From Candidatus Gastranaerophilales bacterium (GTDB lineage: Bacteria > Cyanobacteriota > Vampirovibrionia > Gastranaerophilales > Gastranaerophilaceae), in assembly GCA_944323275.1 (NCBI GenBank), contig CALUSA010000006.1, positions 1 to 52,250 on the forward strand: a DNA stretch of 52,250 nt, written 5' to 3'. Positions 152 through 20,719 of the stretch are shown piece by piece. Every line of letters starts with the position of its first letter. The first letter of the stretch is position 1. The position numbers were made by a program, and so were the translations under genes. Under the pieces are notes generated by a model that did not search any database, was not told the origin of the DNA, and saw only the letters and a list, made by a program, of their open reading frames with translations.

Positions 152-160
152 CTATAAAAT
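132..160 (+). promoter_or_regulatory. Leaderless promoter of the phosphatase gene at 167
   Basis: A -10 hexamer TAAAAT (155-160, 5 of 6 to TATAAT) ends six bases before the ATG, placing +1 on the A of the start codon at 167. No Shine-Dalgarno sequence precedes the ATG. The -35 region (TTACGC, 132-137) is poor and overlaps the second hairpin of the downstream tRNA element. Confidence 0.5.
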
Positions 161-166
161 AATATT

Positions 167-658
167 ATGAAAATTTCTGCAATAACCTTTAAAACCAGAC
201 CACAAAATTATTTAAAAATAGATGATACTGTTTCTCGTTCTGCACAACCAATGGCAGAAGATTTTGAATGGCTAAAAAATCAGGGTGTAACTGATGTGAT
301 AAATTTCAGAACAATGATAAAGTCAAATCTCAATTTTGATGAAAAAACTATTGTTGAACAAAACGGAATGAAGTATCACTCTCTGCCATCAATTTCCAGA
401 CATCCTGATGAAAACAAAATAAAAAACTTTTTAAACATCATAGACAATGTAAAAGAATCAAACGGCAAAGTGCATATTCACTGCAAAGCAGGTGCTGACA
501 GAACCGGCATGTATTCTTTAATTTATAAACAAATTAACCATCTTGGAGATTTAATTTCTAACAAAGCAGAAATGCTAAAAATGGGACACAACAACAAATT
601 ATATCCAGATTTGCTGCCTTGGATAGAAAATTTTTTAAAAAAGAACAATATTATTTAA
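167..658 (+). CDS. Dual-specificity / tyrosine phosphatase-like protein
   Basis: A 163-residue cytosolic protein with the cysteine phosphatase signature HCKAGADRT at residues 105-113 (nucleophile Cys106, phosphate-binding Arg112, Thr113), which matches the CX5R(S/T) loop of the protein tyrosine / dual-specificity phosphatase superfamily. The 'SRSAQP' segment near residue 23 is typical of the small bacterial DSP-like subgroup. The substrate is unknown. The N-terminus MKISAITFKTR carries the FK signature shared with other unknown proteins in this window. There is no Shine-Dalgarno; the start coincides with the predicted transcription start. It lies alone between the two tRNA-Pro genes, apart from the small gene that follows. 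Confidence 0.85.
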   Translation: MKISAITFKTRPQNYLKIDDTVSRSAQPMAEDFEWLKNQGVTDVINFRTMIKSNLNFDEKTIVEQNGMKYHSLPSISRHPDENKIKNFLNIIDNVKESNGKVHIHCKAGADRTGMYSLIYKQINHLGDLISNKAEMLKMGHNNKLYPDLLPWIENFLKKNNII

Positions 659-2999: not shown

Positions 3000-3028
3000 C
3001 GGACATTCATAAGTATTTTTTGTATAAT
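3000..3028 (+). promoter_or_regulatory. Leaderless promoter of the DNA methyltransferase
   Basis: -35 CGGACA (3000-3005, 4 of 6), a 17-base spacer, and -10 TATAAT (3023-3028, perfect). The predicted +1 is A3035, the first base of the methyltransferase ATG. There is no Shine-Dalgarno. Confidence 0.6.
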
Positions 3029-3034
3029 CCTAGT

Positions 3035-4339
3035 ATGAATCAAGGTGTAAATATATTAAAAAGAAAAATTAAAAAGAAAAAAATTCTTTCCTTGTTTAGC
3101 GGCTGCGGTGGGATGGATTTAGGTTTTGAAGGTGGCTTTATTGTTCCTGCTCCTTGCGTAAATGAAAAAATTCATCCTGATTGGATTGCGCAGAAAAATG
3201 GCAATTTCATAAAATTACAACCCACCTTTTTCAATCTGGTTTTTGCAAATGATATCTTAGACTTTGCCCAAGTTGCCTGGCAGTCGTATTTTAAAAAATT
3301 CGGATACGACGACAAGTTATTCCATTTAGAAAGTATTGTTGATTTAGTAAAAAAGCATAAAAAAGGCGAATATTCTTTCCCTAAAAATATCGATATTGTT
3401 ACCGGTGGTTTTCCTTGTCAGGATTTTAGCGTAGCCGGCAAAAGAAAAGGATTTAATTCTGAAAAAAGTCATAATGGAAAAAAAGAGAATTCTGAAATTC
3501 CTACAACAGAAACTCGCGGAATGTTATATCTATGGATGAAGGAAGTTATTGAAATTACAAAACCTAAAGTCTTTATAGCAGAAAATGTAAAAGGCTTAGT
3601 TTCTTTTGGAGATGTAAAAAATATTATAGAAAATGATTTTAGAAACATTGATGACGGATATCTTGTAGTACCGGCAAGAGTTTTATTTGCAGGAGATTAT
3701 GGGATTCCTCAAAAAAGAGAACGTGTCATTTTTATCGGTTTTAATAAAAAATATTTAAAACCCGAAGCATTAATAGCCTTAAGTAAAGAAAATATAGAAG
3801 AAGACTATGACCCGTATCCAATTAAAACCCACTTTGATAATACAAAAGATATACAACTCAGCTTAGATAATAATATATCTAAATTAAAACCGTATGTAAC
3901 AACTTATGATGTATTGAAAGACTTGAAAGAGCCGGAGCAAGAAAATATTGATTTAGCCCAAATGTCATATTCAAAAGCCAAATATTGCCCAAACACGCAA
4001 GGGCAAACAGAAATTAATTTAAATGGACTGGCACCTACAATAAGAGCAGAACATCACGGCAATATTGAATACAGAAGACTTTCCAAAGAAAATGGCGGCA
4101 AACATATAAAAGAATTGAGCAAAGGTTTAAAAGAACGCAGATTAACGGTTAGAGAGTGTGCAAGATTCCAGACATTTCCTGATGATTACCCTTTTGTTCA
4201 AGCCTCCTCAAAAAAGGGAAAATACAAACTGAGCGCAAGTAACGCTTATAAATTAATAGGCAATGCCGTACCGCCATTATTAGCTTACAATATAGCAAAG
4301 CGTTTAGAAGATTTATGGGATAAACTTTTTGTAAAATAG
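3035..4339 (+). CDS. DNA (cytosine-5-)-methyltransferase
   Basis: A 434-residue enzyme that transfers a methyl group from S-adenosylmethionine to C5 of cytosine at a specific site. The motifs occur in canonical order: I (SLFSGCGGMDLGFEGG, about residues 19-34), IV with catalytic Cys128 (GGFPCQDFS), VI (ENVKGL), VIII (QKRERVIFIGF), IX (RECARFQTFPDDYPF) and X (YKLIGNAVPPLLAYNI). The target-recognition region between VIII and IX decides the site and cannot be read here. A TTG at 3020 would extend it by five residues but lies across the -10 box, so ATG 3035 is chosen. It forms a divergent pair with the gene at 1838-2956. Confidence 0.95.
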   Translation: MNQGVNILKRKIKKKKILSLFSGCGGMDLGFEGGFIVPAPCVNEKIHPDWIAQKNGNFIKLQPTFFNLVFANDILDFAQVAWQSYFKKFGYDDKLFHLESIVDLVKKHKKGEYSFPKNIDIVTGGFPCQDFSVAGKRKGFNSEKSHNGKKENSEIPTTETRGMLYLWMKEVIEITKPKVFIAENVKGLVSFGDVKNIIENDFRNIDDGYLVVPARVLFAGDYGIPQKRERVIFIGFNKKYLKPEALIALSKENIEEDYDPYPIKTHFDNTKDIQLSLDNNISKLKPYVTTYDVLKDLKEPEQENIDLAQMSYSKAKYCPNTQGQTEINLNGLAPTIRAEHHGNIEYRRLSKENGGKHIKELSKGLKERRLTVRECARFQTFPDDYPFVQASSKKGKYKLSASNAYKLIGNAVPPLLAYNIAKRLEDLWDKLFVK

Positions 4340-14614: not shown

Positions 14615-14701
14615 AGAATAGTCCCCCTTTCCCTTATACCTTTCAAAACATGAATATCATACTACAGAATTAAAAAAGTATGAATTTTAAATTAAAAAAT
14701 G

Positions 14702-14707
14702 TATAAT
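14702..14707 (+). promoter_or_regulatory. -10 box of leaderless GspF/PilC gene
   Basis: A perfect TATAAT ends seven positions before A14714, so +1 falls on the ATG. The -35 region is weak (ATGAAT at a 16-base spacing). No Shine-Dalgarno lies in front of 14714. Confidence 0.55.
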
Positions 14708-14713
14708 AATTTT

Positions 14714-15727
14714 ATGAAAGAATTAACTTTATCAGAAAAAAAACAATTTTTTAACTCAATAGAAAGCCTCTACAGTGCAGGTTTTCCTTATACTGAAATA
14801 TTTAAAACAATAGAATCTTCCTCTGTAAATGTAAACATAAGGTTGCTTGCTCGAATATTCAGAAGCGGTATTGAAGACGGAATGCCAATAACAGAGCTCA
14901 TGATGAGATACAAAAGCATTGTCGGGGCGCAATACGCTATGCTGTTTTGTGCGGGAGATAAAAGCGGCAAGGTAGAAGCCGCCGTTTTCCGAATAAGGGA
15001 AGATATAAAAAGAACAGAAAATTTAAAAAATTCTTTAATAGCTTCGCTCACATATCCTGCGGTTTTACTGTTAGGCTGTATAGGTGTTTTAATTTTATGT
15101 CAATCCTTCTTCTTTAAGATATTTGATGTAATGTACACAACCGGTATGTGCAGGACATCAATATTTACATTATTTATCACTACTGTGATAAAAATTATTA
15201 TTGCTTATGCTGCCATTTTCGGTGGAATTTTTTATGTTGTATCGAATAAACAGGTTCTTGGTAAAGTAATTGATTTTATTGTAGAAAAAACGCCTCTGGC
15301 ACCTTGTGTAAATAATATTTATTTTATAAATTTTTTCTATGTACTTGCAGCTTCTTATGACGCAGGAATACCTATTATGGAATCCGTTGAGCTTGCTTCT
15401 ACACTGTTTAAAACAAAACAAGCTTCACTCGGGATGATAAAAGCTAATAATGTATTAAAAAACGGCGGCGATGTTGCTTCAGCATTTGTTACTGCACAAC
15501 TTTTCAGCCCGTTTGCTCTGTCACAAATAGCTACAGGCGAAAAAACTGGTCGTTTGGCAGAAGCCTTTAAGGACGCAGCAAAAGACTACGAATACCAGCT
15601 ACAAAACTTTTTAAATGTCTTTACTGCCTGGCTGCAGCCTATGTCTATAGTTTTCATAGGCTTAATTGTCCTGTACATAGCAGTAACGTTTTACAAAAAA
15701 CTGTACGGCGGTTTGCTTAATATATAA
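14714..15727 (+). CDS. Type II secretion / type IV pilus inner-membrane platform protein (GspF/PilC family)
   Basis: A 337-residue protein with two T2SSF domains, each with the pattern seen in the family: a soluble helical part (SLYSAGFPYTEIF; YDAGIPIMESVEL), a 'GDKSGKVEAA' / 'GEKTGRLAEAF' turn and following membrane segments (about 111-133, 150-176, 310-331). It anchors the assembly ATPase and pseudopilus or pilus machinery in the inner membrane. A frame start at 14699 would add five residues, but the TATAAT lies inside that stretch, so ATG 14714 is used. No pilB, pilT or pilin gene is adjacent, so it is an isolated member here. Confidence 0.85.
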   Translation: MKELTLSEKKQFFNSIESLYSAGFPYTEIFKTIESSSVNVNIRLLARIFRSGIEDGMPITELMMRYKSIVGAQYAMLFCAGDKSGKVEAAVFRIREDIKRTENLKNSLIASLTYPAVLLLGCIGVLILCQSFFFKIFDVMYTTGMCRTSIFTLFITTVIKIIIAYAAIFGGIFYVVSNKQVLGKVIDFIVEKTPLAPCVNNIYFINFFYVLAASYDAGIPIMESVELASTLFKTKQASLGMIKANNVLKNGGDVASAFVTAQLFSPFALSQIATGEKTGRLAEAFKDAAKDYEYQLQNFLNVFTAWLQPMSIVFIGLIVLYIAVTFYKKLYGGLLNI

Positions 15728-15744: not shown

Positions 15745-16956
15745 TTACTTATGTCTTGCTTCGAGTTCTCTAAGTTCTCTCTGATAAGGCGAAATATGAT
15801 TGAGTTTTTTAATTACGTCAGGCAGCACCTCGAGTACGTAATCAATTTCTTCTTCAGTTGAAAACCTGCTTAAGCTGAAACGGATACTGCCATGCAAAGA
15901 TTCAAACGGAACACCCATTGATTTTAATACATGGCTTGGTTCAAGACTTCCTGAAGTACAGGCACTGCCAGAGCTTGCACAAATACCAAGATCGCTTAAG
16001 TGAAGCAGTATAAGTTCACCTTCGATATACTGAAAACCAATGTTTGTAGTGTTTGGCACCCTATTTATCGTGGAACCGTTTACTTTGGCGTTATAAATTT
16101 TGTTAAGTATTCCCTGCTCAAGCTTATCTCTCAAACGCTTTACCTCTGTCATTTCGTAAGAGAGGGATTGTTTTGCCAGCTCACAGGCAAGCCCTAAGCC
16201 GACTATGTACGGAACATTCTCTGTACCGGCACGTTTTCCTCTTTCCTGATGACCGCCTATAACAAACGCAGGCAGCAAGGTTCCTGTTTTTACATAAAGT
16301 GCCCCTATACCTTTAGGCGCATGAATTTTGTGACCTGCTATAGATAAAAGGTCAATATCAGTATTTTTTACATCTATAGGAACTTTCCCGGCTGCCTGTA
16401 CTGCATCAACATGTACTTTTATTTTAGGATTCTTTTGTTTAACAATTCTGGCAGCTTTTTCTACAGGCAGGATAACGCCTGTTTCATTGTTGGCATACAT
16501 TATGCTGACAAGAGCAGTATCATTAGTTATTGATTCACTCAGCTGATTCAAATCCAGATTTCCCAGAGAATCAACCTCAAGATATGTAACCTCATAGCCC
16601 TGTTTTTCAAGGTATTTATATACATTTAACACAGCAGGGTGTTCTATTTTTGTTGTTATTATATGTTTTTTACTTTTGTTAGCCTCAAGCACACCCCTTA
16701 TTGCCATATTGTCACCTTCTGAGCCGGAAGCGGTAAAAATAATTTCTTTGGAGTCTGTTGCACCTAAAAATTCTTTAACCTGTTCACGTGCTTTGTCAAC
16801 GGCTTTGTGTACCTGTCCGCCAAATGCATGCATACTTGACGGATTTCCGTAAAGCTCGCAAAAATAAGGTTTCATTGCTTCAAATACTTTAGGATCAACC
16901 ATAGTGGTTGCATTGTTGTCTAAGTAGACAACTTTTTGTGTGCTGTTTTGCGGCAT
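15745..16956 (-). CDS. nifS: Cysteine desulfurase
   Basis: A 403-residue PLP enzyme that takes sulfur from cysteine as a persulfide and hands it to the NifU scaffold. Visible are the N-terminal YLDNNATT, GSEGDNMAIRG, the PLP-binding lysine in SIAGHKIHAPKG, and the catalytic cysteine loop SSGSACTSGS. It lies two bases downstream of nifU in the same operon. The nifU partner, not a nitrogenase context, motivates the symbol; the housekeeping IscS role is likely. Confidence 0.92.
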   Translation of the reverse strand: MPQNSTQKVVYLDNNATTMVDPKVFEAMKPYFCELYGNPSSMHAFGGQVHKAVDKAREQVKEFLGATDSKEIIFTASGSEGDNMAIRGVLEANKSKKHIITTKIEHPAVLNVYKYLEKQGYEVTYLEVDSLGNLDLNQLSESITNDTALVSIMYANNETGVILPVEKAARIVKQKNPKIKVHVDAVQAAGKVPIDVKNTDIDLLSIAGHKIHAPKGIGALYVKTGTLLPAFVIGGHQERGKRAGTENVPYIVGLGLACELAKQSLSYEMTEVKRLRDKLEQGILNKIYNAKVNGSTINRVPNTTNIGFQYIEGELILLHLSDLGICASSGSACTSGSLEPSHVLKSMGVPFESLHGSIRFSLSRFSTEEEIDYVLEVLPDVIKKLNHISPYQRELRELEARHK

Positions 16957-18175: not shown

Positions 18176-18204
18176 TTGACATTGTGCTATAAACTTTATA
18201 GAAT
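18176..18204 (+). promoter_or_regulatory. Consensus leaderless promoter
   Basis: A perfect -35 TTGACA (18176-18181), a 17-base spacer, and -10 TAGAAT (18199-18204). The predicted +1 is A18211, the first base of the next gene's ATG. This is the clearest of the leaderless promoters in the window. Confidence 0.75.
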
Positions 18205-18210
18205 ATTGAT

Positions 18211-18684
18211 ATGAATAAAGTGTTTATCACAGTGTTGTTTCTTGTATTCTGCTCCGGTGTATTTATTCCTGCACAGGCCCGTGAACGTGTTGTTACGGAA
18301 GTCGGTAAAACAGGAATAATTTCTAACGGTCTTTATTTTAGAATACACGACATAACCACACATTCTAAAAATATTGTGATAACGGTAGAAGCAAAAAACA
18401 AATCAATGCTGAGTCAGGCAGTTTATCTTGAACTTATTGATGCCCAAGGAAAAGCCTATAAAACAGACAGCAAAGAGGATTTAACATTTTTTAAACCGCT
18501 TAAATTCAACAAACCACGTATTCAAAAAATAAATTTTACTGTACCGTCTAATAGCGGAAAATACTGGCTTGTCGTGTACAGCAAAGATATTTTTAAAAAG
18601 AACAAAAAACAAATTATTACAAAAATGCCTTTAAACGAGGCAAAAACAGAACTAAATACAAAGCAGCAAACAAAGGACGATTGA
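18211..18684 (+). CDS. Exported protein of unknown function
   Basis: A 157-residue protein with a signal peptide (MNKVFITVLFLVFCSGVFIPAQA, cleavage after AQA at about residue 23). The mature part looks like an all-beta, immunoglobulin-like domain ('LYFRIHDITTHSKNIVITVEAKN', then strands to about residue 130) similar in style to DUF4352-type exported domains. The charged tail is lysine-rich. It is the first of four same-strand genes that probably form an envelope-related unit with the TPR protein. Confidence 0.7.
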   Translation: MNKVFITVLFLVFCSGVFIPAQARERVVTEVGKTGIISNGLYFRIHDITTHSKNIVITVEAKNKSMLSQAVYLELIDAQGKAYKTDSKEDLTFFKPLKFNKPRIQKINFTVPSNSGKYWLVVYSKDIFKKNKKQIITKMPLNEAKTELNTKQQTKDD

Positions 18685-18709
18685 TTTTTTTAAAAAATCA
18701 TAAGATAAT
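18681..18709 (+). promoter_or_regulatory. Leaderless promoter of the TPR gene
   Basis: -35 TTGATT (18681-18686), a 17-base spacer, and -10 GATAAT (18704-18709), which puts +1 on A18716 of the ATG. The -35 overlaps the last codon and stop of the preceding gene. Confidence 0.6.
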
Positions 18710-18715
18710 CAAACT

Positions 18716-20719
18716 ATGAAAAAGCAAATTACTTTAGCAGTATCTTTAATGTTGGCACTCACACCTGTGTGTTCTGATTTTAGTGCCTGTGCAAAAATGT
18801 CTATGGAATCTTACAAACTTTTTCAGGAATCTAATGTGCTTGAAAAAGACTGTAATTATTCAATGGCAATAGAAAAAATAAAAAGTGCAATCGAGCTTTC
18901 GCCGGATGAAGCAATTTTGTATATAAAACTCGGCGGTTTATATACGGAAATGGGCGACTGGGAAAACGCTCTTATTGCATACAAAAAAGCTATTAAATTA
19001 AAACCGAATGATGCTGTTGTTTACATAAGTATAGGCAACATTTTGCAGCAGCAGCATGATTACGAAAATGCTTTTGCTGCATATAATCAGGCATTAACAA
19101 TATTCCCCGATTATAAATATAACTACCTCAATCTTGCAAGTGTAAAATCATTGCAGGGCGATGATCAGGAAGCAATAAAATATTACAAAACATTCTTGGG
19201 CTATTATCCTGATGATGCGGAAGCCAGAGCAAACCTTGCCTCTATTTATTTAAAGATGGACAAATATCAAGATGCCGCAGATGAGTATGCAACTTTATAC
19301 ACAAAAAATCCTACGGTATTTAAAGAATATGCAAATTACGGGCTTGCATTACTGCGTTCCGGTGATTATACAAACGCTGTTGAAATGTTTAAAAAAGCTG
19401 TAAGAAATGATTCAACGGATTATGCTTCACATGCAAACATGGCACTGGCTTATGTAAGGCTTTCTAAAGACGAGCTTGCGCTTATAGAATTTCGCAATGC
19501 CTTTACAATAAAACCGGACTTAAATGATTTAAAACTGGATTATGCGAATCTGCTTGCCGATATGGGCAAAACGCAGGATGCAATCAACATGTACAAAGAA
19601 TACATACAATACAAACCTAAAGATGCCTCTGCATATTACAATCTGGCACTTGTTTATCAAAAAAGTGAAAAGTTTGATGACGCTATTTTAAATTTTAAAT
19701 CCGCATTGGCAATCGACTCCGCCAATGCAGATGTAAAAAAAGAACTGGCAAGAACTTATCACCTTTGCAAAAATTATAACGAAGCTATCAAATTATATGA
19801 TGAATTATTAGCAGTTGACAAAAATGATTACAACGTGCTTTTCAACAAAGCTATCGCAGAACACGCACTTAACAACTATGATGCGGCAATTTCTATCTAT
19901 AAAAATCTTTACGAACAACGCAATGAGCCTAAAGTCAGAGAATATCTTTACAAAGCATACATTGCACAGGGTGACAGCTATACCCGCAACGGTCAAACAA
20001 AGAAAGCACTCAACAGCTATTCACTTGCTGCAGATTTAAATGCCAATGAAGTTGCTGCTTTTAGAGCAATGGCTGGGCTTTATGATTCAATGGATGCAAA
20101 GGTTAAAGCAGTTGAACAATATGAAAAGGCTCTTGTTATCGAACCTGAAAATATCAATTTAATGATTGATTACGCAAAATTGCTTGTTAAATACGGAAAA
20201 AATCAAGCGGCAATAGCTGTTTATAATAAAATTTTATCACTGGATGTAAAAAATGCTCAGGCTCACGAAGCTCTGGCAGATTTATATACAAAAGAAAATA
20301 TGCTTGATAAAGCTGTTACTGAATACCAAAAGACACTGGAACTTTCTTCTGACAACGAAGCTGTTTTAATAAAACTTGGAAACACATACAAAGCCGGTGA
20401 TAATACAAATGATGCGCTTTTGCAGTACGAAAAAGTACTGACGCTTAATTCTAAAAACACTGACGCAATGTTCAATGCAGGTCTATGCTATGCAGAATTA
20501 AAACAAAAAGACAAAGCTAAAGAAACATTCAATAATGTTATTTTGATAAACCCGAAATATGCCTATGCATATTATGCACTTGGTATGGCTTATGAAGAAG
20601 ACAAAGACTATGAGCAGGCTATTTTGAATTATGAAAAGTTTGTCGGGCTTACTGATGATAACCAGATGAAGTCAGATGTAAAAAAACAGATTGAGTACTT
20701 AAAAAATATTGGTAAATGA
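18716..20719 (+). CDS. Exported tetratricopeptide-repeat protein
   Basis: A 667-residue protein made almost wholly of TPR units from about residue 30 to 660 (roughly 17-18 repeats with the A8-G/P32 pattern, for example 'AIEKIKSAIELSPDEAILYI', 'ALIAYKKAIKLKPNDAVVY'). An N-terminal signal peptide (MKKQITLAVSLMLALTPVCS, then SACA) directs it out of the cytoplasm. TPR superhelices act as protein-binding scaffolds; the partner is not visible. The next gene overlaps its stop by four bases (ATGA), so the two products are translationally coupled. Confidence 0.88.
   Translation: MKKQITLAVSLMLALTPVCSDFSACAKMSMESYKLFQESNVLEKDCNYSMAIEKIKSAIELSPDEAILYIKLGGLYTEMGDWENALIAYKKAIKLKPNDAVVYISIGNILQQQHDYENAFAAYNQALTIFPDYKYNYLNLASVKSLQGDDQEAIKYYKTFLGYYPDDAEARANLASIYLKMDKYQDAADEYATLYTKNPTVFKEYANYGLALLRSGDYTNAVEMFKKAVRNDSTDYASHANMALAYVRLSKDELALIEFRNAFTIKPDLNDLKLDYANLLADMGKTQDAINMYKEYIQYKPKDASAYYNLALVYQKSEKFDDAILNFKSALAIDSANADVKKELARTYHLCKNYNEAIKLYDELLAVDKNDYNVLFNKAIAEHALNNYDAAISIYKNLYEQRNEPKVREYLYKAYIAQGDSYTRNGQTKKALNSYSLAADLNANEVAAFRAMAGLYDSMDAKVKAVEQYEKALVIEPENINLMIDYAKLLVKYGKNQAAIAVYNKILSLDVKNAQAHEALADLYTKENMLDKAVTEYQKTLELSSDNEAVLIKLGNTYKAGDNTNDALLQYEKVLTLNSKNTDAMFNAGLCYAELKQKDKAKETFNNVILINPKYAYAYYALGMAYEEDKDYEQAILNYEKFVGLTDDNQMKSDVKKQIEYLKNIGK

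Follow-up and report, generated by a model that had tools for sequence, protein, structure and literature searches.

Five genes in the window (the whole 52,250-nucleotide stretch of Candidatus Gastranaerophilales DNA that was analysed) carry a -10-like hexamer exactly six bases (N6) from the ATG, which raises the question of whether these genes are transcribed from their start codons as leaderless mRNAs. The genome (2.27 Mb in 165 contigs, 35% GC) belongs to the Gastranaerophilales, non-photosynthetic relatives of cyanobacteria found in the gut. An earlier note had reported the five hexamers, and when the coordinates were rechecked both the hexamers and the six-base gap to the ATG were correct at all five genes, which are named here by their start positions (Table 1). 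The -35 matches that the note had placed at a 17-base spacer were likewise found at three genes, as TTGACA (6/6) at 18211, TTGATT (4/6) at 18716 and CGGACA (4/6) at 3035; genes 167 and 14714 have no -35-like hexamer at that spacer. As had also been claimed, none of the five starts is preceded by a convincing Shine-Dalgarno (SD) sequence, and 18716 scores only through a TAAG inside its own promoter. A lenient 4-base test assigned an SD to 23 of the 34 genes in the window, a count that includes this TAAG. From the geometry, we infer the +1 position of each gene to be the A of its ATG.

Table 1 Promoter elements and coding regions of the five genes with a -10 hexamer six bases 5' of the ATG
Feature	Coordinates	Strand	Remarks
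-10 element of 167, TAAAAT	155..160	+	TAAAAT-N6-ATG in 2 orthologues; TAAAAT-N5 and TACAAT-N7 in 2 more
DSP/PTP-like phosphatase (PF22785, PF22741), predicted leaderless start	167..658	+	
-10 element of 3035, TATAAT	3023..3028	+	N6 geometry; CGGACA at 17-base spacer
C-5 cytosine DNA methylase (PF00145), predicted leaderless start	3035..4339	+	
-10 element of 14714, TATAAT	14702..14707	+	TATAAT or TATACT in most orthologues; ATG spacing 6 to 10
T2SS F-domain protein (PF00482)	14714..15727	+	ATG 14714 rather than 14699
-35 element of 18211, TTGACA	18176..18181	+	6/6 consensus, 17-base spacer; kept in 8/8 close congeners
-10 element of 18211, TAGAAT	18199..18204	+	Six bases 5' of ATG; TAGAAT-N6-ATG in 8 close congeners
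157-aa protein, signal-peptide-like N terminus, predicted leaderless start	18211..18684	+	
-35 element of 18716, TTGATT	18681..18686	+	Spacer 17; TTGATT or TTGCTT in most congeners
-10 element of 18716, GATAAT	18704..18709	+	Six bases 5' of ATG; N6 or N7 in nearly all 22 congeneric orthologues
667-aa TPR-repeat protein, predicted leaderless start	18716..20719	+	Pfam TPR

The explanation that we hold with high confidence is that sigma-70-type promoters with a -10 box N6 (sometimes N7) from the ATG produce leaderless mRNAs that are translated by SD-independent initiation, as a standing minority mode. With the box six, sometimes seven, bases 5' of the ATG, transcription by RNA polymerase would begin on the A of the start codon or on a base beside it. 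Translation of the resulting leaderless mRNA would have no need of an SD; judging from other bacteria, 70S ribosomes presumably initiate directly at its AUG. The scheme presumes that these genes have no other upstream promoters; additional upstream promoters may nevertheless give leadered transcripts, and the -35 element is weak at several sites. The observations from which this explanation is drawn are the boxes themselves, the spacing peak, the absence of an SD, conservation across genera and the alternation of box and SD at dxr.

Spacing was assessed in a 452-kb sample of the genome (the window plus 400 kb, taken as 20 stretches of 20 kb) that contained 383 non-overlapping ORFs. The scan was for TAnnnT boxes that differed from TATAAT at one position or none and lay 5' of an in-frame ATG anywhere within the first 30 codons. 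N6 accounted for 23 boxes, and each of the remaining spacings in the 0 to 12 range had 4.6 on average (Poisson P ~8e-10); perfect TATAAT occurred 9 times at N6 versus about once. These results agreed with the earlier statement that the same geometry five times was unlikely to have arisen by chance. ATGs deep inside genes gave no comparable N6 peak, and GTG and TTG starts gave none. The peak recurred (25 boxes versus 6.2) when 20 further genera of the family were sampled, each as one 20-kb stretch (shorter in one case). When the own-genome and family samples were combined, a 4-base SD match was present at 5 of the 48 N6 starts compared to 331 of 497 other first-ATG starts (Fisher p 1.6e-14), and the TG of an extended -10 element was commoner before N6 boxes (13/48 versus 30/297, p 0.003). 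No SSU rRNA, and hence no 16S anti-SD, was found in the MAG. From reading the protein sequences, we take the list of N6 starts to include smpB, dxr, uvrA, mnmA, rimO and other housekeeping genes. With background subtracted, the N6 criterion marked about 18 to 20 of the 383 genes (5%) in the own genome and 19 to 30 of 318 (6 to 10%) in the family sample as leaderless, percentages that are rough because they vary with the number of mismatches allowed and with start positions taken from ORFs. These values suggest that roughly 5 to 10% of Gastranaerophilaceae genes are leaderless, beside SD-led initiation.

The upstream regions of orthologues were then compared. At 18211, TTGACA-N17-TAGAAT-N6-ATG was intact in all eight close congeners, and on the 5' side of the -35 element the DNA of most of these congeners was mutually unrelated. 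In two distant orthologues (48 to 50% identity), TTGACA was retained together with a -10-like box at N6 or N7. The 157-aa protein itself had no Pfam match. Orthologues of 18716 were present in 22 of the 22 congeners searched. The -35 element of 18716 and the TGA stop codon of 18211, the gene before it, overlap, and the 18716 promoter was also kept in congeners that lacked an 18211 orthologue in the DNA examined.

The box of 167 was found at N5 to N7 in four of the five closer orthologues. At 14714 the box was kept and the spacing was not: relatives had values between N6 and N10, which would give leaders 0 to 4 bases long at this gene. Short leaders are thus predicted to exist, both in the 14714 congeners with N7 to N10 and at some other promoters with N7. 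The geometry that the earlier note had described as identical five times therefore held in the window, but in relatives the exact spacing varied for some of the genes. The note had also used the geometry to choose between the ATG and a longer frame at two genes. For 14714 this choice was supported by the orthologues: the longer frame was out of frame or broken in some of them, which identifies ATG 14714 as the start, and the protein alignment begins at this ATG. For 3035 the choice is plausible; no close counterpart of the methylase was found in any of the 22 further genomes of the genus, and the gene was probably acquired. Upstream of the T2SS F-like gene lies an inverted repeat, TCATAC...GTATGA (14657-14683), which was present in most congeners and had no other copy in the sampled 452 kb of the genome; it is possibly an operator or other regulatory site. 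The cysteine desulfurase encoded at 15745-16956 shared 80 to 91% identity with proteins of Candidatus Gastranaerophilales MAGs, and 94% with that of one MAG. The desulfurase-bearing loci of relatives contained no close orthologues of the five genes, and those used here were retrieved by separate searches.

Two housekeeping genes were followed across the family. For smpB, the box was at N6 in 18 and at N7 in 9 of 30 orthologues (27/30 together), and an SD match was present in 2. For dxr, the box was at N6 in 22/30, N7 in 2/30 and N9 in 2/30; the remaining 4/30 had no box, and all four had an SD-like match. This alternation is hard to explain unless box and SD are alternative ways to start. Orthologues of 18211, 18716, 167, smpB and dxr conserved the arrangement, and the footprints at 18211, 18716, smpB and dxr fit promoters lying directly 5' of the start codon. 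The smpB gene (L004:13290-13739), which encodes a ribosome-rescue factor, is predicted to be leaderless in almost every genus of the family. It is conceivable, but rather unlikely, that the conserved leaderless set, smpB included, forms a translational class active when canonical initiation fails, and that leaderless initiation, lacking in oxygenic cyanobacteria, was retained or acquired in the non-photosynthetic part of the phylum.

The pattern might have arisen by chance in an AT-rich genome (35% GC), and the five genes had been picked by eye. Whole-genome counts of TATAAT-N6-ATG were compared with those of the phase-matched TATAAT-N9-ATG, a control that was preferred because in some cyanobacteria a reversed pattern is not a safe control by itself. 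The own genome contained 77 N6 and 42 N9 occurrences, and N6 exceeded N9 in 124 of 124 family genomes (totals 14035 versus 6579, median ratio 2.14). The genome-wide scan for TATAAT-N6-ATG without an SD that the earlier note had proposed thus found enrichment in the own genome and in each of the 124 family genomes examined. Since the reversed-pattern controls and the footprints also oppose it, chance retains next to no probability as an explanation, and these results indicated that the pattern is genuine, holds across the family and shows strong conservation.

A real pattern could still reflect transcription that starts several bases upstream of the ATG at most genes and leaves a tiny leader rather than none. 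The N7 boxes in 9 of 30 smpB orthologues, the mixture of N6 and N7 at 18716 and the N6 to N10 range at 14714 are what such starts would produce, yet genome-wide the peak falls exactly at N6 and none of N5, N7 and N8 is in excess, and we consider short leaders at most genes very unlikely. The box might instead act in translation, as an AT-rich, non-SD ribosome binding signal like that of Bacteroidetes, and AT-rich non-SD sites before start codons are indeed known in other phyla (PMC9581028). Against this stand the single-base precision of the spacing, the TATAAT consensus and the TG extension, all of them promoter features, as well as the conservation of TTGACA at a 17-base spacer with DNA upstream of the -35 element that is not conserved; a ribosomal signal is therefore exceedingly improbable. 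We retain promoters giving leaderless mRNAs as the explanation.

The N6 to N9 ratio was then determined beyond the family (families are given by our own labels). Within the order, N6 was in excess in families f6 (1.86), f7 (1.73) and f3 (1.32), and no excess was found in f2, f4 and f5, where the ratio was near 1. In family f8, which belongs to the same class, it was 1.34. Elsewhere in the phylum, enrichment was found in f11 (2.24; genomes G148, G152, G157, G166 and G170), f15 (4.0; G154) and f19 (4.3; the single genome G174), and no excess was found in f17, the largest cyanobacterial family sampled (900 versus 871, ratio 1.03). For the ORF-based test, too little sequence was sampled from f8 and f11. 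The 2- to 4-fold N6 excess in f11, f15 and f19 suggests that leaderless genes occur outside Gastranaerophilales too.

These results have consequences for annotation and for comparative work. Gene finders that rely on SD sequences only will misplace starts in these common gut bacteria, 14714 and probably 3035 being examples. The lineage also offers a within-phylum comparison between families with and without leaderless genes, and since dxr orthologues swap box and SD, the change can be mapped phylogenetically and tested. The earlier note knew of no description of leaderless genes in this lineage, and our full-text literature search, which covered few subscription papers and is weak evidence, likewise found no report of them for Melainabacteria, Gastranaerophilales or Vampirovibrio. 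Because other phyla are well known to use leaderless initiation, the finding represents a new lineage for a known mechanism.

In a survey of 953 bacterial genomes, TA-led leaderless genes were described and 207 genomes had leaderless genes (Zheng et al. 2011, PMC3160421). No cyanobacterial group was among the groups listed with leaderless genes, and many cyanobacteria were classed as using neither SD-led nor leaderless genes (PMC3160421). A later gene-start paper cites predictions of leaderless transcription for 21.6% of bacterial species (PMC9581028). The TA-led genes of Zheng et al. share with those of Gastranaerophilaceae a TANNNT about 12 bases before the start codon, the lack of an SD and their occurrence in a minority of genes in genomes that otherwise use SD (PMC3160421). 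The mycobacterial leaderless transcriptome is also alike, with the -10 element positioned to start transcription on the start codon; there the starts were experimentally mapped, whereas in Gastranaerophilales they are predicted and the excess is confined to ATG (PMC3898074, PMC4633059). A similar arrangement is known from Deinococcus-Thermus, in which a -10 box that adjoins the ORF yields leaderless mRNA, as was reportedly tested experimentally (PMC12340547). By the count of Zheng et al. (PMC3160421), about 39% of genes are of this type in Deinococcus-Thermus, compared to the estimated 5 to 10% here.
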